The translations under genes and the position numbers were made by a program. A stretch of 45,888 nt of DNA, from positions 1 to 45,888 of the forward strand of contig DWZH01000037.1 of the NCBI GenBank assembly GCA_019118275.1, written 5' to 3'. Below are positions 1,375 through 45,888 of the stretch, in pieces. The stretch comes from Candidatus Brachybacterium merdavium (lineage in GTDB: Bacteria > Actinomycetota > Actinomycetes > Actinomycetales > Dermabacteraceae). The number at the start of each line of letters is the position of its first letter. Positions within the stretch are counted from its first letter, which is position 1. Under the pieces are notes generated by a model that ran no database searches, was not told where the DNA came from, and saw only the letters and a program-made list of their open reading frames with translations.

Positions 1375-1426
1375 AGGGGCGCAACAGGACTTCGGCGGAC
1401 ACCGCAGGAGCGGGAGGAGTGGGGCG

Positions 1427-1726: not shown

Positions 1727-1738
1727 CGTCGTCGCCGG

Positions 1739-5128: not shown

Positions 5129-6791
5129 CCACGACCAGCTCCGCGACCACGACCACGAGGCGGGGCGTCCCCCGGACCGTGGCATCGAGGATCGGGACCA
5201 GGAACCGAGCGCCGGCCGCTCCGGCGTGGCCCGGCCCCTGCTGGGGCTGGCCTGCCTGGTTCCCCTGGCCGCGGCCGTCGCATTGGTGTCGCTGACCCCG
5301 CCCAGCGAGACCGTCTCCGTGACGCGGGGTGAGGCCAGCTCCCGGCCCGGCTCGGTGCAGATGTGGTGCCCGGGACCGGTGCAGCCGCCTGATCCGCTGT
5401 TGGAGGAAGGACCGGACGAGGACCTGTCGGTCACCCCGCCCCACCCTGCCGTGGACGTCGGCACGGTCGCGTTCGAACCGGAATCCTCCCTGCTGTTCGG
5501 AGCCGTCAGCGGCGCGGAGACGCTGCAGGAGGACGATGGCAGCATCCGTGCCCCGCAGATCACCGCAGAAGGGTCCGACGGCTCTGCGCTGCCCGGTGAG
5601 TCCGCGGCCCAGGACCTCGGGGTGAGCGTGCGGACCGATGCCCAGGTCCAGGACGCCCCGCTGCTGTCGGCCGCGAGCTCCCAGGACCTCCGCCCGGTGG
5701 CCGATGCGGTGCAGTCCACTGCGACCGGCAGCGGTGATTACCGGTCCCTGGCGGTGAGCCGCTGCGCGCGCCCCACCACCGAGGCGTCCTTCCTCGGGAT
5801 CTCGACGACCACGGGGAGCAGCTCGGCGCTGGTGCTGCGCAATCCCTCCTCCCAGCCCGCCACCGCCTCCGTGCAGCTGTGGACCGAGGAGGGGCCGGCC
5901 GCGATGGCCGGTCGCAGCCAGGTGGTGGTCGGCCCCGGCGAGGAAGAGAGGATCCTGCTCGAATCGGTCGCCGGCGGGCACGAAGCCCTCGGCGTCGAGG
6001 TCTCCGTGCTCGGCGCGCCGCTGGCGATGCACGTGCAGAGCACCGAGCGTGACGGCCTGACCCCTGGAGGGGCCGAGATCCTCACGCCCCAGTCCCCGGC
6101 CTCGGCACAGCAGGTGATGCCCGCGGTGGACGTGGCCGGGGTCGCACCGACCTTGGTGCTGGCCAACCCCCACGGCGCCTCGACCTCCGCACGCGTGGTG
6201 GTGTCCGGCCCCGACGGCCCGGTCGAGGCCGCCACTCGCGAGGACGTCGAGATTCCCGGCGGGGCGGTCACCACTCTCACGCTGGACGGCGTCCCCGATG
6301 GCAACTACAGCGTCATCGTCGAGGCTGAGGGAGAGGTGCTGGCCACCACCCGCACTTCCACGACCGGCACCGAGCTGCCCGGCGACACCCTGGGCGCCCC
6401 CGTCGACTTCACCTTGGCCGCTGCGGCCGCACCGATCGAGGCCAGCGCGGTGACCGCCCTGCCAGCGACGGGCGCCCACGGATACCTGGTCCTGGCGGCC
6501 CTGGTCGACACCGCGGTGACCATCATCCCCATCGGCGCGGACGGGGCCGCCGGTGAACCCGTCGAGGTGGACGTCTCGGCGGGGACCTCGACCCCGGTCC
6601 TGGGCTCGGAGCTGGCGCTGGGGGACTCCAGCCCCGCCGCCCTCGCGATCGTCCCCGAGGAGCCGGGGGCCGTCCACGCCTCCTGGATGCAACGACAGGA
6701 CGATGACGCGGGCGACATCCTTCTCTCCGCCCTGCCCGTCCCCGCCGGGGCGGCCACCGCCGATGCGGTGACGGTGCGCCTGGGCGAGTGA
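5121..6791 (+). CDS. DUF5719 family secreted/membrane-anchored protein
   Basis: 556 residues. After a charged cytoplasmic N-terminus rich in His and Asp there is one membrane segment at about 37-58, then a long exported region rich in Ala, Val, Thr and Gly with beta-sandwich-like repeats. Two such repeats contain the phrases SALVLRNPSSQPATASVQL and PTLVLANPHGASTSARVVV. This matches DUF5719 proteins that follow glycosyltransferases of the same kind in Micrococcales. The role is unknown; coupling to the upstream gene (8-base overlap, start inside its last codons) suggests they act together on the outer envelope. Two or three Cys lie in the exported part and could form a disulfide. Confidence 0.82.
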   Translation: MADHDQLRDHDHEAGRPPDRGIEDRDQEPSAGRSGVARPLLGLACLVPLAAAVALVSLTPPSETVSVTRGEASSRPGSVQMWCPGPVQPPDPLLEEGPDEDLSVTPPHPAVDVGTVAFEPESSLLFGAVSGAETLQEDDGSIRAPQITAEGSDGSALPGESAAQDLGVSVRTDAQVQDAPLLSAASSQDLRPVADAVQSTATGSGDYRSLAVSRCARPTTEASFLGISTTTGSSSALVLRNPSSQPATASVQLWTEEGPAAMAGRSQVVVGPGEEERILLESVAGGHEALGVEVSVLGAPLAMHVQSTERDGLTPGGAEILTPQSPASAQQVMPAVDVAGVAPTLVLANPHGASTSARVVVSGPDGPVEAATREDVEIPGGAVTTLTLDGVPDGNYSVIVEAEGEVLATTRTSTTGTELPGDTLGAPVDFTLAAAAAPIEASAVTALPATGAHGYLVLAALVDTAVTIIPIGADGAAGEPVEVDVSAGTSTPVLGSELALGDSSPAALAIVPEEPGAVHASWMQRQDDDAGDILLSALPVPAGAATADAVTVRLGE

Positions 6792-6820
6792 GGCGCCGGA
6801 GGCCGCCGCCCTGGCTGGGA

Positions 6821-7276
6821 TCAGCCGTCCCAGATGCCCGGGTCGACCTCCTCGGGCGGCAGCCCCAGGATCGAGGCGACCTGCTCGGACAGCACCTGAC
6901 GCAGCATCAACTCCAGCTCCTGCGGACTCCCGCACCGGGGTTGCACCGAGCGGCGATAGACCACCACCCGCGGCGGATGCTCGCGCGTGGCCGGCACCCC
7001 GCGACCCAGCAGCACACCGGCATGCTCCCAGGGGGCCGGATCCGAGGGAGGCACCTCCTCGACCACCACCTGCAGATGAGCCAGGCGGCGCGGGAAGCGC
7101 TCCGTCAGCGCGGCGGCGACATCGGCGACGGCATCGTCGAACTGCTCACGGCGGGTGCGGTGACCGGGCAGATGCGGGGGGATCAGGTCCCAGCGGCGCC
7201 CCCGCCCCCGGCGATCGCGGCGACGGGGGACCGGACGCTGACCGGAGGGCCCGGCCGGGGACTGCTCGACATCCAT
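6821..7276 (-). CDS. Zincin-like metallopeptidase-family protein (Rv3259-like), HExxH lost
   Basis: 151 residues. The middle and end follow the Zincin_1/Rv3259-type layout: REQFDDAVADVAAAL, then LQVVVEEVPP, then PRVVVYRRSVQPRC and a final helix. In active zincins that helix carries HExxH; here the equivalent reads VLSEQVASILGL, without either histidine, so peptidase activity is unlikely. The N-terminal 40 residues are very basic (RRRDRRGRGRR). The start at 7276 is chosen because a TACAGT -10 box lies 6 bases before the ATG, giving a leaderless message. It is convergent with the DUF5719 gene and divergent from DUF3499, as expected from the conserved block around whiB2 and pmmA. Confidence 0.75.
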   Translation of the reverse strand: MDVEQSPAGPSGQRPVPRRRDRRGRGRRWDLIPPHLPGHRTRREQFDDAVADVAAALTERFPRRLAHLQVVVEEVPPSDPAPWEHAGVLLGRGVPATREHPPRVVVYRRSVQPRCGSPQELELMLRQVLSEQVASILGLPPEEVDPGIWDG

Positions 7277-7282
7277 GACGGC

Positions 7283-7288
7283 ACTGTA
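7283..7288 (-). promoter_or_regulatory. -10 box TACAGT for leaderless zincin-like gene
   Basis: On the minus strand TACAGT ends 6 bases before the ATG at 7276. At that spacing transcription should begin at or next to the start codon. There is no clear -35 box. Confidence 0.6.
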
Positions 7289-7364
7289 GCCGCGCGGGCT
7301 GTGGGCTGCCGCTGCCCGCCGCGCTGTCCGGGCGTGCCGACGAGCGCAGCGGCCTCTGCCTGCG

Positions 7365-7370
7365 TACACT
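7365..7370 (+). promoter_or_regulatory. -10 box TACACT for leaderless DUF3499 gene
   Basis: TACACT ends 6 bases before the GTG at 7377, leaving no room for a ribosome site. This is the arrangement of a leaderless actinobacterial transcript and supports the GTG as the true start. Confidence 0.6.
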
Positions 7371-7376
7371 CCTTGT

Positions 7377-7742
7377 GTGCCTGCTCGTGAATGCTCTCGG
7401 ACCGCCTGCTCGCACCCTGCCGTCAGCACGCTGACGTACGTGTACGAGGACTCCACCGCAGTGCTGGGACCGCTGTCCCGCAGCAGCGAACCGCACGCCT
7501 ACGACCTGTGCCGCGGCCATGCCTCCTCCCTGACCGCTCCGCGTGGCTGGGAGCTGCTGAGGGTGCCCGGCAGCACGGACGTCAGCGACGATCTGGTGGC
7601 GCTGTCCGATGCGGTCGACCCTCGCCGCCGTCCCCCGGCGCCCGAAACGCCGGCAGCGCCGGCCCCGCGACAGCGCCCGGCCGAGCGGCAGCGGCCGGGC
7701 GACGGCCGGCACCTGCACGTGCTCAGGAGCTCGAATGACTGA
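7377..7742 (+). CDS. DUF3499 family zinc-ribbon-like protein
   Basis: 121 residues. Conserved features of DUF3499 (Rv3258c family) are plain: paired cysteines Cys6 and Cys11, the stretch TLTYVYEDSTAVLGPL at about 19-33, then Cys45 and His48 (LCRGHA), and TAPRGWELLR. The Cys/His set suggests a small metal-bound fold. The last 45 residues are Pro/Arg-rich and probably disordered. The function is unknown, but the gene stays next to pmmA and whiB2 across actinobacteria. The start is a GTG with a -10 box 6 bases upstream. The end overlaps the phosphomannomutase start by 8 bases, so the two are one operon. Confidence 0.9.
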   Translation: MPARECSRTACSHPAVSTLTYVYEDSTAVLGPLSRSSEPHAYDLCRGHASSLTAPRGWELLRVPGSTDVSDDLVALSDAVDPRRRPPAPETPAAPAPRQRPAERQRPGDGRHLHVLRSSND

Positions 7743-9408
7743 CCGCCCGACCGTGGACCTCTCCCGGATCGTGACGGCCAATGACGTGCGCGGCGTGGCC
7801 GATGAGGAGCTCACCGATGACGTCGCCCGCGCCTTCGGGGCGGCCTTCGCGGACTTCCTCGAGGCCGGCGCCCTGATCGTCGCCCACGACATGCGCATCT
7901 CCTCTCCGCGCCTGGCGGCGGCCTTCACCGAGGGGGCCGTGCTGCGGGGATCCGTCGTCGCCGAGGCCGGGCTGGCGTCCACGGACCAGCTGTACTGCGC
8001 CTCGGGTCTGCACCGGGCGGCCGGCGCCATGGTCACCGCCTCCCACAACCCGGCGCCCGACAACGGGTTCAAGCTGTGCCTGGCCGGGGCGAGCCCCGTG
8101 TCCCGGGCAAGCGGCCTGGACCAGATCCGCCGCGGCGCCGAGAGCTATCTGGAGGCCGGTGAGATCACCGCTGTCGAGGGCGGCCGCGCCGAGGGCCTGC
8201 AGACACTGGACGACTATGCCGACACCCTGCTGTCGCTGGTCCGGCCCTCCTCGCGGCGTCCCCTGCGGGTCGCGGTCGACGCCGCCAACGCGATGGCGGG
8301 CCTGACCGCCCCCGCCGTGTTCGGGCGTCTCGGGCACCTCGAGCTGGTCCCTCTGTTCTTCGAGCTGGACGGGACTTTTCCGAACCACCCCGCCGACCCC
8401 GTCGCGCACGAGAACCTCGCCGTTCTGCGTGAGACCGTGATCGAGCAGGGCGCCGATCTGGGACTGGCCTTCGACGGGGACGCCGACCGCTGCGTGGTGC
8501 TCGACGAGGCCGGCACGCCCGTCCCGCCCTCGGCGATCACCGCCCTGATCGCCGCCCGGGAGATCGCCCGCGCCCACGAGGCCGGTCAGCAGCGTCCGGC
8601 AGTGGTCGCGAACCTGGTCTCCTCCCGGCACGTGGGCGAGACGGTCGCGGCGGCCGGCGGGCGCCTGGTGCGCTCACCCGTGGGCCATTCGCTGATCAAA
8701 GCGCTGATGGCGGAGGAGCAGGCCGTCTTCGGCGGGGAGCACTCGGCCCACTACTACTTCCGGGACTTCTTCCGTGCCGATTCCGGGATGCTGGCGGCGC
8801 TGCACGTACTGGCCGCCCTCGCCGAGACCGACGGCACCGCCTCCGAGCTGCTGGCCGGACACGATCCCTACCCCTCCAGCGGGGAGATCAACTCCGAGGT
8901 CCCCGATCCGGCGGCGGCGCTGGAGCGGGTGCGCGAGCACACCGAGAAGCTCCCGGACGCCGTCGCCGATGAGCTCGACGGGCTCACGGTCGTTCACTGG
9001 GACGAGCAGATGCCGCCCGAGGACCGCTGGTGGATCTCCCTGCGCCCCTCCAACACCGAATCGCTGCTGCGGCTGAATGTCGAGGCCGCCCAGGAGACCA
9101 CCATGACGCGTGTCCGCGACGAGATCCTGGCGCTGGTCCGCGATGAGGAGCTCGTCGCCGAGGGGGCCCCGCCGGTCAGCGAAGCCGAGCCGACTGCTGC
9201 CGAGGCCGAGGCGGCCGGTGTCGCCCTGCCCGCCGGCGCGAGCGGTGCGGACGTGCCCAGCTGGGTGCGGGCCCAGCTGCGCTGCCCCGACTGCGGCGGC
9301 GAGCTGCGTGACGTGGAGGCTGCTCTGCAGTGCGAGGGGTGTGCACGGGTCCACCCCGTCAGCGGCGGCATCCCCGTCCTCATCGCAGGACGGACCGCGG
9401 TCGGCTGA
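7735..9408 (+). CDS. manB: Phosphomannomutase/phosphoglucomutase fused to Trm112-like zinc domain
   Basis: 557 residues. The first 470 or so form an alpha-D-phosphohexomutase that interconverts mannose-6-phosphate and mannose-1-phosphate, the precursor of GDP-mannose for mannosylated envelope lipids and glycans. Landmarks are the phosphoserine loop TASHNP (Ser103), FPNHPADP at 215-222, the magnesium loop DGDADR at 247-252, the sugar loop GEHSAHYYFRD near 335 and the phosphate-binding RPSNTES near 440. After an Ala/Glu linker comes a Trm112-like zinc ribbon (LRCPDCGGEL...) with Cys517, Cys520, Cys533 and Cys536. In many relatives the ribbon is a separate small gene after manB, so this is a fusion. 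The ATG at 7735 lies inside the end of the DUF3499 gene. Confidence 0.92.
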   Translation: MTDRPTVDLSRIVTANDVRGVADEELTDDVARAFGAAFADFLEAGALIVAHDMRISSPRLAAAFTEGAVLRGSVVAEAGLASTDQLYCASGLHRAAGAMVTASHNPAPDNGFKLCLAGASPVSRASGLDQIRRGAESYLEAGEITAVEGGRAEGLQTLDDYADTLLSLVRPSSRRPLRVAVDAANAMAGLTAPAVFGRLGHLELVPLFFELDGTFPNHPADPVAHENLAVLRETVIEQGADLGLAFDGDADRCVVLDEAGTPVPPSAITALIAAREIARAHEAGQQRPAVVANLVSSRHVGETVAAAGGRLVRSPVGHSLIKALMAEEQAVFGGEHSAHYYFRDFFRADSGMLAALHVLAALAETDGTASELLAGHDPYPSSGEINSEVPDPAAALERVREHTEKLPDAVADELDGLTVVHWDEQMPPEDRWWISLRPSNTESLLRLNVEAAQETTMTRVRDEILALVRDEELVAEGAPPVSEAEPTAAEAEAAGVALPAGASGADVPSWVRAQLRCPDCGGELRDVEAALQCEGCARVHPVSGGIPVLIAGRTAVG

Positions 9409-9427
9409 GCGGCCCGGGCCGAGAGCC

Positions 9428-10264
9428 TCAGGCGGTGAAGGGCACCGCCCGCACCTCGGCTGACAGCTCATGTCGACGCCCTTGGGCGATGCGCAGCCGC
9501 TGCTCGTCACGCCGGGACCGCTCGGCGATCACGGCCGCCAGGAAGGCCTCCGGGTCGGTGCCCGGCGGAGGCGCCGGGGCGACATGCGGCAGGGTGCGCT
9601 GCACCAGATCACGCGAGAGCAGGCGGCGTGACTCGGGATTGGTCTGCTCGGTCCGCGGCAGGAAGGACCGGATGTCCGCCATCAGCGTGACCGGAAGACG
9701 GCCGACGTCGGCGGAGCCGGCCCACTGCTGGAGATCGACCGGCACGGCCGGGCGCCGCGGCTCGATCGTGCGCATCCGCTCCTGGATCACCATGGTGCCG
9801 GCCAGCAGGTCCCCGATCCGGCGCGACCTGCGATCGATCACCGAGGAGGTCAGTGCGAGGGTCCCTGCGGTCGACCAGATCTCCAGCATCGCCATCACCG
9901 CCCGGATCAGGCTCTGGCGCAGGTGGGCGGGACCACCGTCGTCACGAACCACACGGGTGCCCATCACCAGGCGTCCCACCGAGCGTCCCCGCAGCAGCAG
10001 CTCGCTGAGCACCGGGTACCCGACGTAGGCGGTCACCGACATCACCAGCACCGCGGCCGCGATCAGACCCTGGTCCAGATCCGCTCGGGCGGCTGTCCAG
10101 GCCAGGGCGACGACCCCGCCGATCAGGATCGCCAACTGCAGCGCCCCGTCGATCGCGGCGGAGACCATGCGCACCGCGAAGGAGGCGGTGCGCAGATCCA
10201 GCAGGACGGCGTCGCCCGTGATCAGCGCTTCGCGATCGGTGCCCGCGGTGCTTGTCGATGCCAT
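9428..10264 (-). CDS. RDD family membrane protein
   Basis: 278 residues. The RDD domain covers about 20-165: the opening FAVRMVSAAIDG (27-40, with the Arg and Asp of the family), two or three hydrophobic helices, and the hallmark GRSVGRLVMGTRVV (93-106). The C-terminal 110 residues are cytoplasmic, Arg-rich, with PRTEQTNPESRRLLSRDL and a helical end. RDD proteins are poorly understood; some have been linked to ion transport. It is divergent from the SpoIIM-like gene, the usual pairing in actinobacteria next to DUF58 and MoxR. It converges on manB with only 19 bases between. Confidence 0.88.
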   Translation of the reverse strand: MASTSTAGTDREALITGDAVLLDLRTASFAVRMVSAAIDGALQLAILIGGVVALAWTAARADLDQGLIAAAVLVMSVTAYVGYPVLSELLLRGRSVGRLVMGTRVVRDDGGPAHLRQSLIRAVMAMLEIWSTAGTLALTSSVIDRRSRRIGDLLAGTMVIQERMRTIEPRRPAVPVDLQQWAGSADVGRLPVTLMADIRSFLPRTEQTNPESRRLLSRDLVQRTLPHVAPAPPPGTDPEAFLAAVIAERSRRDEQRLRIAQGRRHELSAEVRAVPFTA

Positions 10265-10368
10265 GGCCCCATCCTGGCACCGGCCGCGGCGCCGGAGGAG
10301 GTCCGACCGTCGGCTTCCGATGCCGACGGGTGCGACTTTCGTCGGCCGTCCGGGGACGGGCGGCGCTC

Positions 10369-10374
10369 TACCCT
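10369..10374 (+). promoter_or_regulatory. -10 box TACCCT for leaderless spoIIM-like gene
   Basis: TACCCT ends 6 bases before the GTG at 10381, with no ribosome site between. The same spacing recurs at several starts in this window. Confidence 0.5.
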
Positions 10375-10380
10375 GGCCAG

Positions 10381-11376
10381 GTGGATACCGACGCCTTCAT
10401 CGCCGTGCACCGGCCCCAGTGGGACCGGCTCCAGGAGCTGACCCGCAGCCGGACCCTCGACGCGGAGGGTGTGGACGAGCTGATGTCGCTGTACCAGGAG
10501 ACCGCCACGCATCTGTCCACGGTGCGCTCGACCAATCCCGATCCGGCACTGACGGCCCGGCTGTCGCTGCTGGTGCACCGGGCGCGGTTGCGCATCACAG
10601 GGGCGCGCACGCCCCTGTGGCGTCACACGCGGACCTTCTTCTGGGAGGATCTGCCGGCGGCGCTGTTCGAGGCCCGCTGGGCGGTGGTCCTGTCCACCGT
10701 CGTCTTCCTGGTCGCTGCGCTGATCTCCGGTCTCTATTTCGGCCTGGACCCGGTGGCGCGGGAGATGGTGATCCCGGAAGGCGCACAGCGCTCCCTGGCC
10801 CAGCGCGACTTCGTCTCCTACTACTTCCAGGGCGAGGCCTCCGGCTTCGCCGCCCAGGTGTGGACGAACAACGCCTGGATCACGGTGCAGTCGGTGGTGT
10901 TCGGCGTCACCGGGATCTGGCCGATGTTCATGCTGCTCCAGAACGGTCTGAACATCGGTCTCTCGGCCGGGGTGATGGGTGCCTACGGCGGACTGGGGAC
11001 CTTCTTCGTGTACATCCTGCCGCATGGCCTGCTCGAGCTGACCTGCCTGTTCGTCGGGGCCGGGGCGGGGCTGCGCACCTTCTGGGCGTGGGTGCGTCCC
11101 GGCTCCCTGCCGAGGCTGTGGGCTCTGGCCCGCGCGGCACGATCCCTGATGACGGTGGCGATCGGACTGGTGCCGGTGCTGCTGATCTCCGGCTTCGTCG
11201 AGGCCTTCGTGACCCCCAGCGGGCTCCCGGCCGCGGTGCGCATCGCCATCGGGGCCGGGGTGTGGATCGCCTTCCTGGTGTACATGCTGGGCCGCGGCCG
11301 CCAGGTCCACCGCCGCGGGATCACCGGCGACCTCTCCGAGGAGATGGTCGGCGACCAGGTCGCGACCGCCGGCTGA
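10381..11376 (+). CDS. Stage II sporulation protein M-like membrane protein
   Basis: 331 residues. An N-terminal soluble helical region (about 1-85, VDTDAFIAVHRPQWDRLQEL) is followed by five or six membrane segments. The SpoIIM/DUF95 family region includes YYFQGEASGFAAQVWTNN and the turn FMLLQNGLNIGLSAGV. In non-sporulating actinobacteria this family is found beside RDD, DUF58 and MoxR genes and is probably an envelope or membrane-assembly factor, not a sporulation protein. The GTG start is supported by the leaderless -10 box. An 18-base gap separates it from the kinase-like gene downstream. Confidence 0.9.
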   Translation: MDTDAFIAVHRPQWDRLQELTRSRTLDAEGVDELMSLYQETATHLSTVRSTNPDPALTARLSLLVHRARLRITGARTPLWRHTRTFFWEDLPAALFEARWAVVLSTVVFLVAALISGLYFGLDPVAREMVIPEGAQRSLAQRDFVSYYFQGEASGFAAQVWTNNAWITVQSVVFGVTGIWPMFMLLQNGLNIGLSAGVMGAYGGLGTFFVYILPHGLLELTCLFVGAGAGLRTFWAWVRPGSLPRLWALARAARSLMTVAIGLVPVLLISGFVEAFVTPSGLPAAVRIAIGAGVWIAFLVYMLGRGRQVHRRGITGDLSEEMVGDQVATAG

Positions 11377-11394
11377 GTCGGGCCCGGGCGGACG

Positions 11395-12276
11395 ATGAGC
11401 AGCGGCGAGCAGGCGGCGATGACGAACACCCGACACGGTGCCCCGGCAGATGCAGCGCGCGTCCTGCGCCGGTCCTGGCCGCATCTGCCATGGACCGACG
11501 TGCGCATCGCCCGCGGCGCCTTCCACCACGTCCTGCTGCTTCCGCCCAGAGCGGTGATCAGAGTGCGCAACGGGGCGGAGCACGCGCGTGCCACGGACCG
11601 GGAAGTGACGATAGCGACCACCCTGTCCTGGGCTGGGTTGGGATCCCCGGGCCCGCTGGGCGATCCGGTGCACAGGAAGCGATGGTCGGCGGCCGCCTAC
11701 GAGTTCGTCGAGGGAGCGGGCTTCACGGCCCGACGCTGGTCCGAGGACCGGCATGTGCTCCTCGGCCTCCTCGAAGCCTGGGCCGACGCAGGACGCCGGG
11801 TTCCCGGGCTCGCCGGTTCGTTGCCTCAGCCTCGTGCCTGGTGCGGGGGAGATGCCTGGCCGAGCCTCGTGGACCGGCTCACCGCGGGACAGGAAGCCTT
11901 GCGCTCCGCGGCACGGAAACGGGTCAGGGCGATGCTCGACCTGGAGGCCGAGGCCAACGGGTCGCTCGTCCACGGGGACTTCGGGCCGCACAACATCGTG
12001 CTCCCCGCCAGCGGCGGTAGAGGAGTCCTGATCGATACCGATCACGCTTCCTGGGCAGACCCGGCGATCGACATCGCGCCGTTGCTCGCGTCCTACCCGG
12101 AGCACGAGCTCGCCGCGGATATTCCGCGCCCTCTCCTCAGCCGAGCCACGGCGCATCGGCGGACCCTGTCGCTTCAGGTCGCGGCAGCGGCTTGGCTGCG
12201 AGGGGATCACCGGCTTCGAGAGCATGCGCTGGGGAACTTCGCACGACGCATTCGCAGTGCCGACCCGCAGTGGTGA
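11395..12276 (+). CDS. Aminoglycoside-phosphotransferase-like kinase (APH family)
   Basis: 293 residues. The kinase catalytic loop is HGDFGPHN at 193-200 (Asp195 the likely base, Asn200 a metal ligand), followed by VLIDTDHASWADPAIDIAPLLASY, where IDTD (213-216) takes the place of the usual IDFE metal-binding motif. The APH fold also includes choline, homoserine and fructosamine kinases, so the substrate is open and resistance should not be assumed. Codon use differs from the neighbours, with AGA, AGG, ATA and GGT codons that are rare around it. It sits between the SpoIIM-like and DUF58 genes, which are usually closer together. The start could also be the ATG at 11419. These points suggest a gene acquired later than its surroundings. 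Confidence 0.75.
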   Translation: MSSGEQAAMTNTRHGAPADAARVLRRSWPHLPWTDVRIARGAFHHVLLLPPRAVIRVRNGAEHARATDREVTIATTLSWAGLGSPGPLGDPVHRKRWSAAAYEFVEGAGFTARRWSEDRHVLLGLLEAWADAGRRVPGLAGSLPQPRAWCGGDAWPSLVDRLTAGQEALRSAARKRVRAMLDLEAEANGSLVHGDFGPHNIVLPASGGRGVLIDTDHASWADPAIDIAPLLASYPEHELAADIPRPLLSRATAHRRTLSLQVAAAAWLRGDHRLREHALGNFARRIRSADPQW

Positions 12277-12384
12277 GGGGCGTGGTTCGTCCGTATCCGG
12301 CCGGCCGGGCTCTATCGGCGTGACGCGAAGCATCTCCGACCGGGCGATGCGCGAGCCTTTCGAGGCGCAGGGGCTCGGCCCGTC

Positions 12385-13683
12385 TCAGAGCCTCCCGGCG
12401 GCCTTCATCATCAGGTAGGAGTCGGCCAGGCCCTGCGGTGCCTTCTCCGGGGGTGCATCCATCACATGAGCGCCGGTGCGCTCGAGGGCATGGGCCACGC
12501 CGGCCCGGCGGGTGCGGGCCTGCTCCGCGGCGGCGGCGCGGTAGACCGTCTCCAGGTCGTCGCGGCCGGCGGCGAGCTCCTCGAGCGCCGGGTCGGAGAC
12601 CGAGGCCACGATCAGCGGGTGGTCCCGGGCCAGCCGTGCGGCCACCGGCAGCAGCCCGGTGTGGACCACGGATTCCTCCACCGGGGTCACCAGCACCACC
12701 AGGGAGCCCTTGCGCGCCCGCGAGGTGATGGTGGAGGCGGCCAGCTCCCAGTCGGTCTCGACCAGGGCCGGGTGCACGGCGGCGGTCGCGCTGACCATGT
12801 CGTTCAGCACGGTGGTGCGGCTCGAGCCGAGCACGGAGACGTGGGGGATGCGGTCGATGCACAGCAGGTCTACCCGGTCCCCGGCCTGACCGGCGAGCGC
12901 AGTCAGCAGCAGGGCCGCGTCGAAGGCTGTGTCCAGCCGGGTCGAGTCGCCGAGCCGGCTGGCGGAGGTGCGGGAGGTGTCCACCACGATCAGCACGTGC
13001 CGGTCGCGTTCGGGACGCCAGGTGCGCACCACCACGCTGCGGCGTCGCGCCGTGGCCCGCCAGTCGATCGAGCGCACGTCGTCGCCGTCGACGAAGTCGC
13101 GCAGCGAATCGAACTCGGTGCCCTGTCCGCGCTGATGGATCGCGGCGAGCCCTTCGATCTCCCGCAGCCGGCGCACCCGGGAGGGCAGGTGGCGGCGCGA
13201 CCCGAAGGGGTGCAGTGCCAGCAGCCGGCCGGGTGCCTGGGCCCGCGCGGTGCGGCGGGCCAGGCCCAGACGGCCGACGGAGGCCACCAGCAGCGCCCGG
13301 GAGGAATGCTCGCCGCGCCGTGTGGGCAGGAATCGCTGCCTGATCGCCCGGCGCTCATGGGGTGGCACGTGCAGCCGGGACCGTTGCTCGGACAGGCCCG
13401 CGGTGGGGTTCCAGGCGTCACGGACCTCCAGGCGGGCCGGCCGGGCGGTGGGGTTGGTCAGGAGCAGTCGCCCGGTGGCTTCCTTGCCCAGCCGGACCTG
13501 CCCGGGGGCGTCACGACGCACCGTGATCATCGCCGGGTTCGGCGCGAGCAGGGCGTCGGTGAGCACCACCAGCGCCCATAGCACGAAGCAGGTCAGAAGC
13601 ATCCACCAGGTCGGCCAGATCACGACCAGCGGCAGGGCCAGCAGCGCGACCAGCGCCGCCCGCGGGGTCAGGGAGATCCTCAT
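12385..13683 (-). CDS. DUF58 domain-containing membrane protein
   Basis: 432 residues. Two membrane helices at about 8-24 and 26-44 are followed by a soluble part carrying the DUF58 signature: GTEFDSLRDFVDGDDVRSID (188-207) and WRATARR just after. A von Willebrand factor A-like core follows, with VVDTSRTS near 233-240. Family members are partners of MoxR ATPases and may recruit or assemble client proteins at the membrane. It follows moxR with an 11-base gap in one minus-strand operon. The ATG at 13683 is chosen because it begins directly before the first hydrophobic helix; a longer upstream frame overlaps moxR and lacks conserved sequence. Confidence 0.9.
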   Translation of the reverse strand: MRISLTPRAALVALLALPLVVIWPTWWMLLTCFVLWALVVLTDALLAPNPAMITVRRDAPGQVRLGKEATGRLLLTNPTARPARLEVRDAWNPTAGLSEQRSRLHVPPHERRAIRQRFLPTRRGEHSSRALLVASVGRLGLARRTARAQAPGRLLALHPFGSRRHLPSRVRRLREIEGLAAIHQRGQGTEFDSLRDFVDGDDVRSIDWRATARRRSVVVRTWRPERDRHVLIVVDTSRTSASRLGDSTRLDTAFDAALLLTALAGQAGDRVDLLCIDRIPHVSVLGSSRTTVLNDMVSATAAVHPALVETDWELAASTITSRARKGSLVVLVTPVEESVVHTGLLPVAARLARDHPLIVASVSDPALEELAAGRDDLETVYRAAAAEQARTRRAGVAHALERTGAHVMDAPPEKAPQGLADSYLMMKAAGRL

Positions 13684-13694
13684 CGGGGGCGTCC

Positions 13695-14728
<1,034 letters not shown>

Positions 14729-14732
<4 letters not shown>

Positions 14733-15991
14733 CGGTCGATCTCCTTCTCGAGTCGGTCCAGGTCCCGCGCGAGCTGCACGAGGTCCTGGTCACGGGTGAC
14801 GGGGGTGGGCCCGAGCAGGGAGCGGATCTGCTCGGGCGAGCGCTGCACATGGGGCGCCAGTGCCGCGACGAGGGCATCGAGGGTGGACTCGCGCCGCAGT
14901 CCCAGCTGCAGCGCCAGGCGCACCGATGTGGCGGAGCGCAGAGCAGTGGCCGCGGCATCCCGCGACGAGGACTGCTGCAACAGTCGGGCACGGCCCAGCA
15001 CCATCTCCTGGGGCCGCACGGTCACCGGCAGCGGTTCGACCACCACGGGGCCGAAGCGCCGGCCCCAGGCGATCAGGGCGATCCCGGCGACCAGCAGGAT
15101 CCACAGCCCCACGGGGCCGGCCCAGTCGGGCAGATGGGTCAGCAGCTCGGGCCCGGTGGTGGCCATGGGATCGGTCGCCGAGGGGACGTACCAGCTGAGC
15201 TCACCGCTGGGTCCCAGGGCGTTGAGCACGAGCGCGGAGTTGTCCGCCTCCCGCACCCCCTCATTGGTCAGCAGGTCCGCGCTGCCGAGCACCAGCACCT
15301 GCCCGTCGGCCGCCACCAGATCACCCTCGGGGGTGTCGAAACAGCCCTGAGCTTCTCCGCGGGTGCTGTAGAGCGTGGAGGGGCCGCGCAGGCCCTCCTC
15401 GCCGGGGACGGCGAGGGCGCGTGCTTCGAAGGTGAGGTCGCCGCAGCTCTGACCGGCCTCGACGGTGCTCTCGGCGCGGAGCGACCCGGCCGGGGTGATC
15501 AGCGGGGTGAGATAGGACAGGGTCACGAAGTCGGGTTGGACCAGCACCAGCTGTCCCTCCCCCTCCTCGAGGGCCCCGGCGAGCTCGTCCAGCTGCGGCG
15601 CGGACAGGGAGCTGGGAGCGGTCACCAGCACGGTGCGGTCCTCACGCAGGGACTGCGCGGCGTCCTCGGTGTGCCGGTCCACCCGCACCTGCGTGCCCAG
15701 ATCGGTCAGCACCTCCACCACGGCTTTCGAGCCCTGCGGCGTCGGGGCATCGGGCTCGAGGGGTCCGTCCCGGTAGACCCCGCGGGCGATGGTCACCGCG
15801 ATCGCGAGCACGATGCCGGTGGCCACCAGGATCACCAGCCAGGGGCGGCCGTGCCCGCCCCGGTCGCCCGAGCCGCCCGGCCCTGCCGAATCCCGCCCAG
15901 GCGAGGAGGGGCCGGTGGTGGCGGGTGCGGCATCGGCGGCCGGCGCGAGCTCGGGGCTGATTGCGGCGCCGGCAGACCTCGACGGGCTCAC
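14729..15991 (-). CDS. DUF4350 domain-containing membrane protein
   Basis: 420 residues. A Pro/Ser/Gly-rich cytoplasmic head (1-48) leads into one helix at about 51-69, then an exported region containing the DUF4350 core (GSKAVVEVLTDLGTQVRVD, then TVLVTAPSSLSAPQLDEL and GEGQLVLVQPD). This part resembles the GATase-like fold seen in related GldG-type proteins. A second helix lies near 290-312, followed by a cytoplasmic helical tail. DUF4350 genes accompany MoxR, DUF58 and DUF4129 in actinobacteria. Both ends overlap neighbours by 4 bases. Confidence 0.88.
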
Positions 15992-16656
15992 GGTGCGACT
16001 CCGGCGAACTGATCGCCCTCGGCCGGCTCGGAGTCGGTGAGGTCGGGGGCGGACTCAGCGATGTACTCCGTCAGCCGCAGCAGATCTTCGGCCTGTTTGG
16101 CGGCGACTGCACGGTGGGAGTAGGCGGCGGTGTCGAAGGCGTCCGCCCCCCGCTGGAGCCGGCTGGTCAGGTCGGGGAAGGAGTGCGAGGCGCTCGCAGC
16201 GGCCTCGTGGGCGGTCATCCCCACGGTGACGTCCAGCAGGGTGCGCACCTCGAGGTCGCGCACCAGGCTGCGCAGGGCCAGCACGGTGGCGTCGTCGAAG
16301 CGTTCCTCGGCGATCGCTCGGTGCGCGGAGTCCCGCAGCTCCCCGGCGCTGAGCACGGGTTCGGCGTCGAGGGCCGAGGCCACGCTCAGCACGGCACCGC
16401 GGCGTATCAGGCCGGTGCGTCGCAGCACCAGCACGACGACAGCTCCCAGCAGCAGGAGCAGGACGATCGCGATGGCGGCCTGGGCGGTCGAGGAGCCGTC
16501 GATGCCGTCGGCCAGCGAGAGCAGCCACTCCTCGATCACCCGCAGCAACCAGGCCACGAAGCCCTCGGAGTCGTCGTACTCGGACTTGGCCAGCTCATCG
16601 CGGATCCGGGAGCGGGCGTCATCGGGATCGACGGGTGGGGGCGCCGCGGGGATCAC
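15988..16656 (-). CDS. DUF4129 domain-containing protein
   Basis: 222 residues. One membrane helix at about 60-79 is followed by the DUF4129 domain, with ELRDSAHRAIAEERFDDATV and LRSLVRDLEVRTLLDVTVGMT. In this family the domain is often fused to transglutaminase-like proteins; here it stands alone in the MoxR/DUF58/DUF4350 operon. The GTG start at 16656 overlaps the upstream stop (GTGA). A longer frame upstream to 16986 is only a shadow of the preceding membrane-protein gene. Confidence 0.87.
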   Translation of the reverse strand: MIPAAPPPVDPDDARSRIRDELAKSEYDDSEGFVAWLLRVIEEWLLSLADGIDGSSTAQAAIAIVLLLLLGAVVVLVLRRTGLIRRGAVLSVASALDAEPVLSAGELRDSAHRAIAEERFDDATVLALRSLVRDLEVRTLLDVTVGMTAHEAAASASHSFPDLTSRLQRGADAFDTAAYSHRAVAAKQAEDLLRLTEYIAESAPDLTDSEPAEGDQFAGVAP

Positions 16657-17792
16657 GACGGGGCCCCCGGTGCGGTGGGCTCTCGTCCCGCTCGCGCCTG
16701 CCGGTTCAGCTCGACGTCCCAGGCCTCGTGACGCATGCGGTTGTCGGCGTAGATCGCGGCGTACCCGGCACACAGGAACGGGGCCAGCAGGAAGGTGGCG
16801 ATGTAGGTGCCGAGCATCATGATCACGGTCATCACTCCCATGGCCAGCACGAAGGCCTCGAGGGAGGAGGCCAGCAGGATCGCCACGTAGAGGATGAAGG
16901 CGATGAAGACGAAGACGCCGGCGACGATCTGCTGGGCGAAGTAGAAGATCAGCACCAGCAGCAGCATCAGCCCGAGCACGCGCCACAGCTTACGTCCGGC
17001 GGTCATCTGGAAGGAGCGGTGCAGCGAGCCCAGCACCCCCGTCCCTTCGATCGCCAGGGCGGGCAGCGACAGCGCGGTCCGGGCGAAGACCCACAGGGCG
17101 GCCAACACCCCTGCCAGCAGACCGAGCAGCAGGGCGATGATGGTCAGCCACCCCGCCTCCTGGGTGACGAGCAGGGGCAGAGCGCCCACGGCCAGGGGGA
17201 GCAGGAAGGCGACCGAGCCCAGGACCCCCATGAGCAGGGAGACCGCCACCGCCGGCAGCGCCTGGCCTCGCAGCAGGGACCACAGCCGGCCGTCGGGCAC
17301 GCTGTCGCCGGTGGCCTCGCCCACGGTGATGCGGGTCAGCACGACCGTCACCAGGGCGCTTGCCACCAGGGTGATGATCATGGTGACCACCGTGGAGCTG
17401 ACGGTGGCCAGGATCTGCGAGGTGGTCCCGCCCACGGTCTCCAAGCCCTCGGCGGCCTCACCGGTGGGGTCCTCCAGGGTGGCCTGCATCTGGCCGACCA
17501 GGGGGATCATGCCCGCACCGGTGGCGAGGGTGATCAGCACGAAGGCGATGCCGTAGACCGCCGCGGCCAGGCCCAGCACCGGCTTCGGTCGCACCCGGTA
17601 GATCCGCACGGCCGCACCCAGCACCTCGCCCACGTTCAGGGGTCGCAGCGGGAACAGGGGCACCTGCTGGACCAGCTCCCGTTGCGGGCCCGTGGTGGGC
17701 TGCGGAGCAGGCCCCCCGGACCCGTTCGCAGGGCCGGGCTCGTGCCCGGCGGGCTGCCCGGTCGATCCGGGTGCTGTCCATCCGGTGCTCAT
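16653..17792 (-). CDS. Multi-pass membrane protein, glycerophosphodiester phosphodiesterase membrane-domain type
   Basis: 379 residues. A Pro/Gly-rich N-terminal tail (1-40) precedes PLFPLRPLNVGEVLGAAVRI, a conserved entry motif of this actinobacterial family, and about six hydrophobic segments. It resembles the membrane domain found on some glycerophosphoryl diester phosphodiesterases, but no phosphodiesterase catalytic motif is present, so no such activity is claimed. It is the first gene of the minus-strand operon running through DUF4129, DUF4350, moxR and DUF58. GGCGGAGGAGAAC before the ATG is a strong ribosome site. Confidence 0.83.
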   Translation of the reverse strand: MSTGWTAPGSTGQPAGHEPGPANGSGGPAPQPTTGPQRELVQQVPLFPLRPLNVGEVLGAAVRIYRVRPKPVLGLAAAVYGIAFVLITLATGAGMIPLVGQMQATLEDPTGEAAEGLETVGGTTSQILATVSSTVVTMIITLVASALVTVVLTRITVGEATGDSVPDGRLWSLLRGQALPAVAVSLLMGVLGSVAFLLPLAVGALPLLVTQEAGWLTIIALLLGLLAGVLAALWVFARTALSLPALAIEGTGVLGSLHRSFQMTAGRKLWRVLGLMLLLVLIFYFAQQIVAGVFVFIAFILYVAILLASSLEAFVLAMGVMTVIMMLGTYIATFLLAPFLCAGYAAIYADNRMRHEAWDVELNRQARAGREPTAPGAPS

Positions 17793-18067
17793 GTTCTCCT
17801 CCGCCTCCTCGGTTCCGGGGTCCGGCACGGCCGGGCCGCGCCGGCATCGGGCTGTCAGGAGCCAACCTACGGACTGCGGGCCCCGCGCCTTATCCGACGA
17901 ACGTCGATGCCCTCGCATCTTCGGTGCACGATCGCAGGTCCGCACCGGTCCGCAGGGCCGCGTCCGTTCGGCGACCCGTTCGCCCGGAGAGCCGGATGTC
18001 GCCCCGCCCGGGGGCTGACGCCACCGTGGCCGCCGCCTCCCCGGCCCGAGGGGCTCTCGGTGGCACA
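17793..18067. other. Divergent intergenic region before mtrA
   Basis: 275 bases between the membrane-protein operon and mtrA. It must hold both promoters, but I see no box pair good enough to call. Open frames read across it lack family similarity. The mtrA start has only a weak ribosome site. Confidence 0.6.
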
Positions 18068-18763
18068 ATGACCACCATGACGACGCCTTCACGGATCCTC
18101 GTGGTCGACGACGATCAGGCGATCGCCGAGATGGTCGGCATCGTGCTGCGCGGGCAGGGCTACGAGGTGGCCACCTCTCCTGACGGGGCCTCGGCCCTCG
18201 AGACCTTCCCTCGGCTGCGACCGGACCTGGTGCTGCTGGACCTCATGCTGCCCGGCATGGACGGCATCGAGGTCTGCCGCCAGCTGCGCCGTGAGTCCGG
18301 GGTCCCCGTCATCATGCTCACCGCCCGCACCGACACCGCTGACGTGGTCGAGGGGCTCGAGGCGGGGGCCGATGACTACCTCACCAAGCCCTTCGAACCC
18401 GAGGAGCTGGTGGCGCGGATCAAGGCCCGGGTCCGTCGCACCGAGGAGCTCACCACGGAGACCCTCAGCATCGGGGACCTGGTGATCGACGTGGACGGCC
18501 ATGAGGTCCGGCGTGGCGAGGAACTGATCTCGCTGACGCCGCTGGAGTTCGATCTGCTCACCCAGCTGGCTCGCAAGCCCTGGCAGGTGTTCACCCGCGA
18601 CGTGCTGCTGCGCGATGTCTGGGGGTATCGCCACAGCGCCGATACGCGCCTGGTCAACGTGCATGTCCAGCGGCTGCGTTCGAAGATCGAGCATGACCCG
18701 GAGAACCCGCGGATCGTGGTGACCGTCCGCGGGGTCGGCTACCGTGCCGGGGGCTCCTCCTGA
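18068..18763 (+). CDS. mtrA: Response regulator MtrA
   Basis: 231 residues. An OmpR-type regulator: receiver domain with the acidic pocket VVDDDQ, phosphoacceptor Asp58 (VLLDLMLPGMDGIEVC) and KPFEPEELVAR, then a winged-helix DNA-binding domain with SLTPLEFDLLTQLARKP and RLVNVHVQRLRSKIE near the end. It is very close to mycobacterial MtrA, which controls division, peptidoglycan hydrolases and the replication origin region. A second ATG at 18077 is an equally possible start. mtrB follows after 16 bases and lpqB overlaps mtrB, giving the standard actinobacterial mtrAB-lpqB operon. Confidence 0.97.
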   Translation: MTTMTTPSRILVVDDDQAIAEMVGIVLRGQGYEVATSPDGASALETFPRLRPDLVLLDLMLPGMDGIEVCRQLRRESGVPVIMLTARTDTADVVEGLEAGADDYLTKPFEPEELVARIKARVRRTEELTTETLSIGDLVIDVDGHEVRRGEELISLTPLEFDLLTQLARKPWQVFTRDVLLRDVWGYRHSADTRLVNVHVQRLRSKIEHDPENPRIVVTVRGVGYRAGGSS

Positions 18764-43071: not shown

Positions 43072-44235
43072 TCAGGAGCTCGTCGCGCGGCCGGTGTCGT
43101 CCTCGGCGTCGGGCCCGACGACCTCGACACCGTGCTGAGGGGTCAGGCGGGATTCCGGTCCGGTGTAGGCCTCGGCGTCGCGGTGGAGGTTGCGCAGGCG
43201 GATGTCCCGGCCCTCGTCGACCAGATCCTCATACTTGGCCTCGGCCTTCTCGGCGGCCTTGCTCTCGCGCAGGTCCAGGGTCAGACCGTCCTCGGCGGGC
43301 TTGCCCGCCTCGAGCTCGCGGGCACGTTCGAACTCCGCGTCGACCTCGGCACCGATCAGGATCACGATATTGATGATCCACAGGGCGAACAGCACGGCCA
43401 TGATGCCGCCGATGGCGCCGTAGCTGGAGTAGCTCGCCACGGTGGTCATGTAGATCGACAGCGCCACCGCGGCCACCGCGATGCCCAGGATCGCCACCAC
43501 ACCACCGGGTGAGATCAGCCGGAACGGCTTGGACACGTTCGGCGCCCCCCAGTACAGGATCGAGATCAGTGCGAAGGCGATTACCAGGACCACCGGCCAC
43601 TTCACCCAGGCCCAGATCGGCAGGAAGGAGTCCGTCAGGAACATCAGCAGCCCGTTCGCACCGATCGACGAGGCGATCGGGCCCAGCAGGCCCTCGACGA
43701 TGGTGGCGCTGAGCAGCACCGAGATCAGGATCAGCAGGATCCCCAGGATCATCACCACGGTCAGGCCGAGCATGGCGGCGTTCATCCGCACCGGGCCGCG
43801 GCCCTCCGGGACCTCGTAGATGTGGTTGGCGACCCGGCCGTAGGCCTTGATGTAGGCCGAGGCCGACCACAGGGCGGTGGCGATACCGATGATCAGGCCG
43901 ATGGTGCCACCGGTGGCCGAGCCCATCAGGGACTCGACGGTGTCACGGATGGCGTCGTCGGCGCCCAGGCCGCTGCCACCGGCGGCCGACTCGATCGCGG
44001 AGACGAGGAGCTCGGCGATCTGATCCGTGATGTCGGCCAGCAGCAGCGTGGCCAAGGAGAACACGGCCAGCAGGGCGGGGGCGATCGAGAGCACCATGAA
44101 GTAGGTGAGCTTGGCGGCCTGGTCGGTTCCGCGGTCACGTGAGAACTCCCGGAGCACCCGCTTGGACATGTACTTCAGGGTCGGTGCGCTCAGGCGGTGG
44201 GTCCCGCTGTCGGTCGAGTCCGGTGATTCGGCCAT
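43072..44235 (-). CDS. YihY/BrkB family membrane protein
   Basis: 387 residues. The core has the family opening RDRGTDQAAKLTYFMVLSIA, about six membrane helices, the conserved LWSASAYIKAYGRVANHIYE, and LISPGGVVAILGIAVAAVAL. The last 85 residues are charged and cytoplasmic (ELEAGKPAEDGLTLDL ...). Despite the older 'ribonuclease BN' label it is not a nuclease; its transport function is unknown. The ATG at 44235 has AGGAG 8 bases upstream; an earlier in-frame start at 44265 is less likely. Confidence 0.92.
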   Translation of the reverse strand: MAESPDSTDSGTHRLSAPTLKYMSKRVLREFSRDRGTDQAAKLTYFMVLSIAPALLAVFSLATLLLADITDQIAELLVSAIESAAGGSGLGADDAIRDTVESLMGSATGGTIGLIIGIATALWSASAYIKAYGRVANHIYEVPEGRGPVRMNAAMLGLTVVMILGILLILISVLLSATIVEGLLGPIASSIGANGLLMFLTDSFLPIWAWVKWPVVLVIAFALISILYWGAPNVSKPFRLISPGGVVAILGIAVAAVALSIYMTTVASYSSYGAIGGIMAVLFALWIINIVILIGAEVDAEFERARELEAGKPAEDGLTLDLRESKAAEKAEAKYEDLVDEGRDIRLRNLHRDAEAYTGPESRLTPQHGVEVVGPDAEDDTGRATSS

Positions 44236-44358
44236 GAGGTGGGCTCCTGGTGAAGAAGGAATCATCCATGGGCAGTGGCCATCATCCTTTCATGATCGTC
44301 GGCTGGGAGAGTTATCCACATTCGCGGGGAGGGACGAGCGCGGGCCTCGGCCAGGTCC
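44236..44358. other. Divergent gap between brkB-like gene and cpaF
   Basis: About 120 bases that should hold the promoter of the minus-strand SRAP operon. It includes GTTATCCACA near 44315, which resembles a DnaA-box core, but a single box has little weight. Confidence 0.35.
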
Positions 44359-44434: not shown

Positions 44435-45052
44435 ATGGAAGCGGCCACCATCATCGAGAGCGAATCGCGCGATCTCATCCGCCGGCGCGGTCTCGATGCG
44501 CGCGCTGACCAGCTCGAGCCGCTGATCCGCGAGGTGGTCGCCGACTACGACTCCCGCGCCTCCTCGGGCGCGGTCCCCGTGGTCACCGACGACGACACGG
44601 TGGTCGCCGAGGTCGCCGCCCGCATCGGCGGATTCGGACCGCTGCAGGAGATGCTGGATGATCCTTCCGTCGAGGAAATCTGGCTGAACTCGCCGTCACA
44701 GGTATTTTGTGCGCGCAACGGGCGCAGCGAGCTGACCACACTGGTCCTGGGTGATGACGAGGTGCGCGGGATCATCGAGAGGATGCTGGTCAGCTCCGGG
44801 CGCCGGCTTGACATGTCCACGCCGTTCGTCGACGCACTGCTGCCGGACGGTTCTCGCCTGCACGTGGTGATCCCCTCCATCACCCGCCAGCACTGGGCGA
44901 TCAACATCCGCAAGTTCGTCGCCCGAGCTTTCGACCTGTCCGGCCTGGTGGCCCTCGGCTCCCTGACTCCGCAGGCGGCGGCCTTCCTCGATGCCGCAGT
45001 GGGTGCAGGACTGAATGTGATCACCTCCGGCGCGACCGCATACAGAGCCTAA
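44435..45052 (+). pseudogene. cpaF: Tad/Flp pilus ATPase CpaF (TadA), cut off in Walker A
   Basis: The first 201 codons are an ordinary CpaF: an N-terminal helical region, GGFGPLQEMLDDPSVEEIWL, the ring region LVSSGRRLDMSTPFVDALLP and DGSRLHVVIPS, then LVALGSLTPQAAAFLDAAVG. The reading next gives GLNVITSGAT, the start of the P-loop (family: SGATxxGKTT), and at 45038 turns into AYRA and a stop. The usual protein is twice as long, so the whole nucleotide-binding half is gone and this product cannot hydrolyse ATP. CpaF drives assembly of Tad/Flp pili. The other half is presumably beyond the inserted DNA, outside the window. A GGGGGAGCGG site precedes the ATG. Confidence 0.88.
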
Positions 45053-45127
45053 TCAATATATTTATGCGCTTGCCGCAAGAGAGCTGACAACCGCCTGACC
45101 TGCTGATATGCCGTGATGCATGCGCGA

Positions 45128-45176
45128 CGGAGGGGCCGACTCGAACCCGAACCAACACGGCTCGGCGGCCCCTCCG
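45128..45176. repeat. Inverted repeat, 11-bp arms
   Basis: CGGAGGGGCCG (45128-45138) pairs perfectly with CGGCCCCTCCG (45166-45176) around 27 bases. It lies between the junction and the unknown gene and may be a second terminator or an element-end structure. Confidence 0.6.
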
Positions 45177-45181
45177 ACGGC

Positions 45182-45204
45182 TGCGGGCCGGTTAGCGGCC
45201 CGCA
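45182..45204 (-). terminator. Terminator hairpin after the unknown gene
   Basis: TGCGGGCCG-GTTAG-CGGCCCGCA is a perfect 9-bp stem with a 5-base loop, starting 4 bases beyond the stop of the minus-strand gene. Confidence 0.7.
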
Positions 45205-45208
45205 ACTC

Positions 45209-45694
45209 TCAGATGACGGACCCGCCCATGCGCTTCCAGCCCGACTCCACGTGCGGCAATACCGGGGCGTTGAGCACGGTGTCAGCGTCCTCCTGTGCCT
45301 CTGCGATTGACTCGTTCACGCTCCGCTCAACATCCTGGGAGAGCTTGCGTCCGTGCTCAATCCAACCTGGCATGAGTGCTTCCATCAACTGGTCGTTCCC
45401 GGCCAGTGCGGCATCGGCCTGCTGGGTGGCGCGCAGCCGTTCGGTAAGCATCGCGGGACGCTCAACCTTGATGAGCTCCCAGGCGCGAAAGACGATGCCA
45501 CGGCTGCACATTTCACCGTGCCGAAGTGCGACACGGACAGCCGTCGCATAGTCATGTGGCTCCTCGGTCGGGAGCCATTCGAGTTGTCCGAGGTCGCCGC
45601 CACTGCGGCGAGCGATGTCCAGAACCTGCTCTGGCATGTCGCTCCAGTAGACAGACGATTGCGGGGTCACGAGGTGCAGCACGGGGGCCTCCAA
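45209..45694 (-). CDS. Hypothetical protein of the inserted segment
   Basis: 161 residues if read from a TTG at 45694; the ATG at 45637 (MPEQVLDIARRSGGDLGQLE) would give 142. I do not recognise the family. It is rich in charged residues and helix formers, with HDYATAVRVALRHGEMCSRG, VFRAWELIKVERPAMLTERL and QDVERSVNESIAEAQEDADT, and no signal or membrane segment. Its codons are less G/C-biased than those of the chromosome. Phages and integrative elements of actinobacteria carry many such small cytoplasmic proteins. A palindrome upstream and a terminator directly after the stop suggest a separately regulated single gene. Confidence 0.55.
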   Translation of the reverse strand: MEAPVLHLVTPQSSVYWSDMPEQVLDIARRSGGDLGQLEWLPTEEPHDYATAVRVALRHGEMCSRGIVFRAWELIKVERPAMLTERLRATQQADAALAGNDQLMEALMPGWIEHGRKLSQDVERSVNESIAEAQEDADTVLNAPVLPHVESGWKRMGGSVI

Positions 45695-45754
45695 GGCGCG
45701 GGCGAGCGATACACAGGGTCATCGCTGCAATTGGGCGGTTCTCTGGTGATTCAA

Positions 45755-45770
45755 TCGCACTTGGGTGCGA
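45755..45770. promoter_or_regulatory. Palindrome TCGCAC-TTGG-GTGCGA, candidate operator
   Basis: Two 6-base arms with a 4-base centre lie 61 bases upstream of the unknown gene's TTG start. The position would suit an operator. Confidence 0.35.
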
Positions 45771-45816
45771 TGGGGGGTGACGTACACGAAACGGCCCGTA
45801 GGCGGCCCCGTAGACG

Positions 45817-45860
45817 TAGAGCGGCCCCCGGCCCCGGTGATGGGGTCGGGGGCCGCTCTA
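45817..45860. terminator. Long terminator-like hairpin near the window end
   Basis: Bases 45817-45835 pair with 45842-45860 over 19 bp, with one G-T pair and a 6-base loop. It is the most stable hairpin of the right end. It could end a gene coming from outside the window. Confidence 0.75.
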
Positions 45861-45888
45861 GCGCTGGCGTATTACGCATGCGATGCAT

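Follow-up and report, generated by a model that had tools for sequence, protein, structure and literature searches.

Organization of the locus

The window analyzed here, 45,888 nucleotides in length, is the whole of contig C132 from the 3.66-Mb draft genome (137 contigs) of Candidatus Brachybacterium merdavium. Its right end carries the first half of cpaF, the gene of the Tad/Flp pilus ATPase, followed by DNA that is foreign to this gene. The following features were identified:

44435..45037, plus strand: N-terminal half of cpaF, codons 1–201 (through SGAT), delimited by sequence and genus alignment, with a Pfam T2SSE match at 67–201
45035..45038, plus strand: attL core ACCG, common to the junction on contig C37 (L041:2735–2738)
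45039..45888, no strand assigned: inserted element from its left end to the contig end (850 bases), found only once in the genome if its self-matching hairpin is set aside
45209..45694, minus strand: open reading frame of 161 aa inside the element
45817..45860, no strand assigned: hairpin found as an inverted-repeat pair, its 19-nt arms being 95% complementary, with 28 bases left to the contig end

Just upstream of cpaF, on the opposite strand, lies an ORF (43072–44265) which we take to encode a YihY-type membrane protein; a similar ORF is found upstream of cpaF in L034, L035, and L036.

The truncated cpaF frame (44435–45052) terminates in ...SGATAYRA*, with the stop codon at 45050–45052. Its match to the intact cpaF genes of the genus continues through codon 201 (ACC, 45035–45037) and includes the G at 45038, with 45039 being the first foreign base. 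An earlier note on this DNA had described cpaF as normal through SGAT and then broken inside its Walker A codons by foreign DNA, which was borne out; the divergence that it placed at 45038 was correct as to the break itself, although it begins one base later. The missing half was located in the same genome (C37:2738–3358), where it starts with GAGKTTF (codon 202) and shows 90% identity to the query, which came from a relative. The note had also proposed a search downstream for an integrase and for a second cpaF half starting with the missing codons; both do exist, but on contig C37 and not in the window. By alignment score (213 against 212), the core ACCG and a 2-base alternative just upstream are not separated, and the longer core was chosen.

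The element was assembled as two ends, namely the 850 bases in the window and about 2.7 kb on C37, with a middle that is joined to neither. Searches of Pfam, PHROG, and phage records gave no match to a 167-aa version of its ORF (45209–45712). As the contig stops 850 bases past the junction, in a 137-contig draft in which the middle of the element is missing, a chimeric assembly or contaminating sequence has to be considered at this end. This is very improbable, as the second half resumes at the very next codon with the common core and an adjoining integrase only 18 bases off, and an equal split-cpaF anatomy is found in four genomes that each consist of a single contig (G019, G020, G280, and G309); these observations together argue against a simple assembly error or chance. 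From the sequence, it is almost certain that a site-specific element sits inside the Walker A codons of cpaF. A multi-copy IS or transposon was also considered and rejected, the left end and the integrase each being present as a single copy in the genome (the integrase at E ≤ 1e-55).

Compared with the intact genes, the two cpaF halves have median pN/pS values of 0.25 and 0.15, the ranges among intact genes being 0.02–0.36 and 0.05–0.21. Both values lie inside these ranges and, therefore, either the insertion is recent or the gene has been kept.

The integrase of the element

The candidate integrase of the element, P0001 (495 aa), is encoded on C37 on the strand opposite to the C-terminal cpaF half, and its start codon is 18 bases from the core ACCG. 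It possesses Resolvase (PF00239, E = 2e-26) and Recombinase (PF07508, E = 5.5e-8) domains and matches the integrase family phrog_95 (E = 1.2e-80). Four of its residues (R13, S15, Q28, and R87) are invariant in 12 aligned relatives; we take this to be the catalytic serine region, presumably with the role that it has in Bxb1 and phiC31. Domain order, length (about 450–600 aa for this class) and the adjoining attachment site fit a large serine integrase, for which recombination activity is predicted. The common core and the position of P0001 beside the C37 junction support the proposal of the earlier note that an element with a site-specific integrase was the cause of the break.

The arms of the attP inferred for the window's element show no significant symmetry (6 of 16 pairs match, p = 0.44). 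Symmetry at p < 0.05 was obtained for 7 of 19 inferred attP sites. As symmetry is often weak and the exact core is uncertain, this is compatible with membership among the large serine integrases. The three ORFs beside P0001 had no PHROG match, and no relative was found when P0001 alone was used as query against viral and genome contigs. The missing middle of the element was sought by means of DnaB_C, which gave one gene, on C75, with no link to the element.

Split cpaF genes within the genus

A search with the 408-aa CpaF in 38 genomes of the same genus identified full-length cpaF in 29 of them. A truncated cpaF is therefore abnormal for the genus, and these intact genes provide the empty site that the earlier note had anticipated in related genomes. 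Of the 38 genomes, 36 have both CpaF-type genes, cpaF and its paralog, in complete or partial form. Elements were found to split cpaF in 5 of the 37 carriers:

G000 (the genome of the window): split at codon 201
G019: split at about codon 151, 7.4 kb
G020: split at about codon 87, 9.3 kb
G045: split at about codon 262, 40.7 kb
G007: split at about codon 316–320, 20 kb

A sixth carrier, G041 (L115, 513–9632), is truncated, having codons 1–89 of cpaF only, with neither the C-terminal half nor tadB found in its genome. This has the look of an insertion or deletion event by which some of the tad cluster was subsequently lost. The earlier note had named relatives with a truncated cpaF lacking any second half as speaking against its own reading; this is the situation in this one genus genome and not in that of the window. 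Excluded from the count of element splits were G041 (N-terminal half only), G022 (pieces in several frames) and G006 (contig ends); G038 has the paralog only.

The gene next to cpaF, tadB, is intact in all 36 genomes that have it (absent from G038 and G041), as is the cpaF paralog in all 37 (absent from G051). The difference between cpaF (5/37) and these two genes together (0/73) is significant (Fisher's test, p = 0.0036); against tadB alone, p = 0.054, or 0.025 with G041 counted as a hit.

Split cpaF genes in the order and in named relatives

Throughout the order, cpaF is split in at least 15 of 297 genomes, a lower bound in that 24 low or odd scorers were re-searched, with the rest taken as intact or without the gene, and up to six candidates were scored per genome. 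Both halves were found in 12 of the re-searched genomes (G076, G083, G133, G152, G167, G218, G246, G279, G280, G281, G289, and G309), to which G000, G019, and G020 are added; G007 and G045 lie outside the sample of 297. The other 12 re-searched genomes consist of six having an N-terminal half for which the C-terminal half was not found (G122, G149, G240, G154, G239, and G182, the last near a contig start), one with a frameshift (G275), one with a near-full-length match and four with divergent or paralogous matches only; neither the six nor G275 were counted as splits.

Thirty loci were obtained when an alignment of twelve integrases was used to scan named genomes. Five of these, all from Arthrobacter, are in cpaF at about codon 325 (L042, L044, L045, L047, and L067), and the C-terminal half was found for L042, L044, and L045. 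At L045 (Arthrobacter sp. Soil763, 421–18651) a single cpaF holds two elements, at about codons 293 and 325, with a middle piece of about 40 codons. When the genes beside the integrase were scanned at 18 other named-genome loci, a Tad-type gene was identified at one, L054 (a Glaciihabitans MAG), where the element is in a T2SSF gene behind an intact-looking cpaF match (28–397). Many relatives of P0001 occur outside cpaF in the available sequence, most of their insertion sites being unplaced; this weighs against the explanation favored below.

The paralog, intact throughout the genus, is hit elsewhere. In G133 (L162–L165), Walker A is the point of breakage in both cpaF and a paralog, with two partial integrases alongside that are 75% identical over 262 residues. 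In G344 (L181, 6599–16354), an element of about 9 kb interrupts the paralog at the counterpart of cpaF codon 131, and its integrase is 53–54% identical to those of G218 and G281. Relatives of P0001 at E ≤ 1e-55 were identified in at least eight order genomes (396 searched, with up to three candidates scored in each), of which five are in cpaF, one (G344) is in the paralog and two have no assigned place (G238 and G094). The gene is full length in both of the phage records found to contain cpaF (MT836248 and MT836307). On the strength of these sequence comparisons, cpaF is very probably a recurrent target of integrating elements.

Insertion sites along cpaF

The insertions fall into nine site clusters, at about codons 87, 128–132, 139, 150–156, 201, 262, 293–297, 316–320, and 325. 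Both aligned cpaF halves are free of stop codons in all 20 splits checked, the window's included. This comes from a check of each half separately; the read-through of the joins themselves is partly by construction, as joins were picked by alignment score and those containing stops were discarded. For G133, G167, G218, and G289, the core could be placed only to within some bases. A serine-integrase ORF is present at or near the junction in every one of the 20 splits except that of G279, lying somewhat apart from it in G133 (0.3 kb), G309 (0.9 kb), and G007 (about 1.9 kb). The phage-type integrase of G279 belongs to a different PHROG family (phrog_1), presumably of the tyrosine type. Insertions at the Walker A site occur in G000, G076, and G133, with distant integrases that represent two or three lineages, the joining of G076 and G133 in the tree being doubtful.

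The earlier note had explained the choice of the P-loop codons by their conservation, an explanation that did not hold. When nucleotide conservation is compared along cpaF (29 intact genes), the 40-nt stretch around codon 201 ranks at the 18th percentile, ten site positions have a mean conservation of 0.862 against 0.847 for the whole gene, no higher than random positions (p = 0.14), and most of the other splits are at other codons. What is targeted would appear to be the gene more than its most conserved stretch.

Phylogeny of the integrases

A tree of 57 integrases was built by a quick method and has some long branches, including those of G019, G007, and G076. The integrases were gathered in two differently biased searches, and the label "other" means that no cpaF match occurs in the available sequence. 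On this tree the label "in cpaF" needs 6 changes, whether gains or losses, at least four of them forced by well-supported branches, compared with 16.4 in shuffles; this count leaves out integrases of unknown location as well as the two free viral contigs, with which there are 8 changes (6 forced).

Clades were found to correspond to sites, as seen at codon 128–131 (G218 and G281), codon 293–297 (G167, G280, G289, and the first L045 element, L045a), codon 325 (Arthrobacter and the two viral contigs) and codon 150 (G309 and G152, with G045 at codon 262 next to them). As clades track sites and at least four changes are forced, the gene has been adopted more than once, with related integrases at differing sites, and several integrase lineages converge on cpaF.

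Possible free form and cargo

The two viral contigs (L072 and L073) encode integrases of the codon-325 clade. Upstream of these, both element arms occur unbroken in a sequence that resembles the attP deduced from Arthrobacter. The score of this match was not reached by any of 500 shuffles in six comparisons, and its best place in each contig adjoins the integrase; no cpaF was found in either contig by tblastn. The two contigs may be cpaF-targeting elements in the free state, and their predicted attP supports the mobility of the codon-325 clade, not directly that of the window's element.

The cpaF halves lie between 5 kb (G280) and 105 kb (G083) apart, although the G083 interval may not represent a single element. 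Several of the cargo proteins scanned gave no match; those identified were:

G020: major head protein, head-tail adaptor, primase-helicase
G019: D5-type primase, TIR protein
G281: terminase ATPase
G289: TIR-TM
L045a: type IIG restriction-methyltransferase
G007: type I restriction genes
G045: tail and endolysin genes

Among the codon 293–297 elements (L149, L150, L045, and L148), a small resolvase is common to three (67–88% identical), and all four have in common a protein (34–48% identical) whose zinc-loop match is weak and falls below the cut-off. These are perhaps one family of small defense-carrying elements whose cargo differs (TIR-TM or type IIG restriction). Phage-like, satellite-like and defense-carrying elements fill the nine site clusters of cpaF, and such elements are also found in its paralog and its T2SSF neighbor.

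Possible function of the insertions

From the sequence, the attP of an element with P0001 almost certainly recombined with an attB in cpaF at codon 201/202, which gave the two intact halves. As the cut inside Walker A is between the N-terminal region and the ATPase core, a whole CpaF could not be made with the element in place. From the structure of the gene, the pilus ATPase should be lost for as long as the element is present, and excision would restore cpaF. In Micrococcus luteus, two tad loci are both required for Flp pili and natural transformation, and transformation was abolished when any tad gene at either one was deleted, with the partial exception of one tadB (PMC4322843). If the Tad/Flp pilus is likewise a DNA-uptake pilus here, the breaking of cpaF would stop natural transformation and shield the element from removal by homologous recombination, an escape of the kind argued for elements in competence genes by Croucher et al. 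(2016; PMC4774983). Among the possible reasons for which cpaF is hit so frequently, this benefit would be the most likely, with about an even chance of being true. The ComEC (Competence) domain is present in 38 of 38 genus genomes and also in 10 of 14 control genomes, and so says little.

It may instead be that cpaF is merely a convenient docking gene, being common, dispensable in many habitats and tolerated when broken, and that the loss of the pilus gives the element nothing. The spread of sites along cpaF and the complete loss of tad genes in some genomes, such as G038, agree with this, as do the two elements in the one cpaF of L045: the later of these gains nothing from a gene that is already broken and, therefore, site tropism alone can fill cpaF. 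Set against it are the absence of hits within the genus in tadB and the paralog, which have the same function, the convergence of several integrase lineages on cpaF, and the fact that the positions chosen are not the most conserved, so that DNA conservation alone fails to explain the choice. A docking gene is a serious candidate, with a chance somewhat below even. Superinfection exclusion, in which loss of the pilus would remove the receptor of competing phages, is decidedly unlikely. Tad pili do serve as phage receptors in some bacteria, and several of the elements are phage-like (the tail and endolysin genes of G045 and the head protein of G020) or have defense-type genes; however, the loss of any tad gene would do for this purpose, yet tadB is unbroken in all of its 36 carriers.

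A reversible switch, as suggested earlier, with the element leaving cpaF under certain conditions and so turning Tad pili on and off, would be a case of active lysogeny, in which, as with the Listeria comK prophage, an element splits a coding gene and its excision restores it. Likewise, the coding gene here is in two intact halves. The open frames of all 20 splits would allow restoration, the pN/pS of the window's halves falls inside the range of intact genes, and an unrecombined attP is available for the codon-325 integrase group. However, open halves are equally to be expected from recent insertion, no excised copy of the window's element was seen, and the sites, differing between species, suggest turnover and not a long-kept switch. 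A switch is therefore unlikely, if less so than superinfection exclusion. The explanation that we favor as reasonably probable is that of integration into a recurrent target with escape from curing. Its fullest form, in which cpaF would be the actinobacterial counterpart of comK, comYC, and comM, broken by several lineages to disarm DNA uptake, with clades that shift sites and one that has reached the equivalent site of the paralog, is tentative and may fall just short of an even chance.

Comparison with known systems

The repeated breakage of competence genes by elements is already known; no paper on cpaF as an integrase target was identified in the open-license PMC literature. The CpaF-type (T2SSE) gene of the window also differs from the target of the comM genomic islands. 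The closest parallel is the repeated splitting of the DNA-uptake genes comK, comYC, comFA, and comM by divergent integrases (Croucher et al., 2016; PMC4774983), where two distinct comFA sites are used by integrases that are 34.1% identical. In contrast to those elements, the gene hit here encodes the Tad/Flp pilus ATPase in Actinobacteria and has nine site clusters, and the loss of transformation is inferred from Micrococcus luteus. Should the favored explanation be true, the conflict between mobile elements and natural transformation would extend to Actinobacteria and to the Tad/Flp type of pilus, with about twenty natural cpaF knockouts, integrase/attB pairs mapped along one gene, and a route for testing the idea of intragenomic conflict with the Flp-pilus uptake system of Actinobacteria.

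Distantly related large serine recombinases that share one target gene are likewise described by Durrant et al. (2022; PMC10083194), where a Mg chelatase/ATP-dependent protease gene and a prolyl isomerase gene are repeatedly targeted and DNA competence genes are enriched among the targets. The words "pilus" and "secretion" are absent from its main text, and its supplement may include T2SSE genes. The prolyl isomerase case is one of a single conserved site, whereas cpaF is used at many sites within one gene. The HE-PICIs of Tommasini et al. (2023; PMC10111431) have tyrosine integrases and insert in prophage late genes, while mostly serine integrases and a host pilus gene are involved here; in both, integrase clades keep to groups of sites, and new sites arise within the preferred kind of target.
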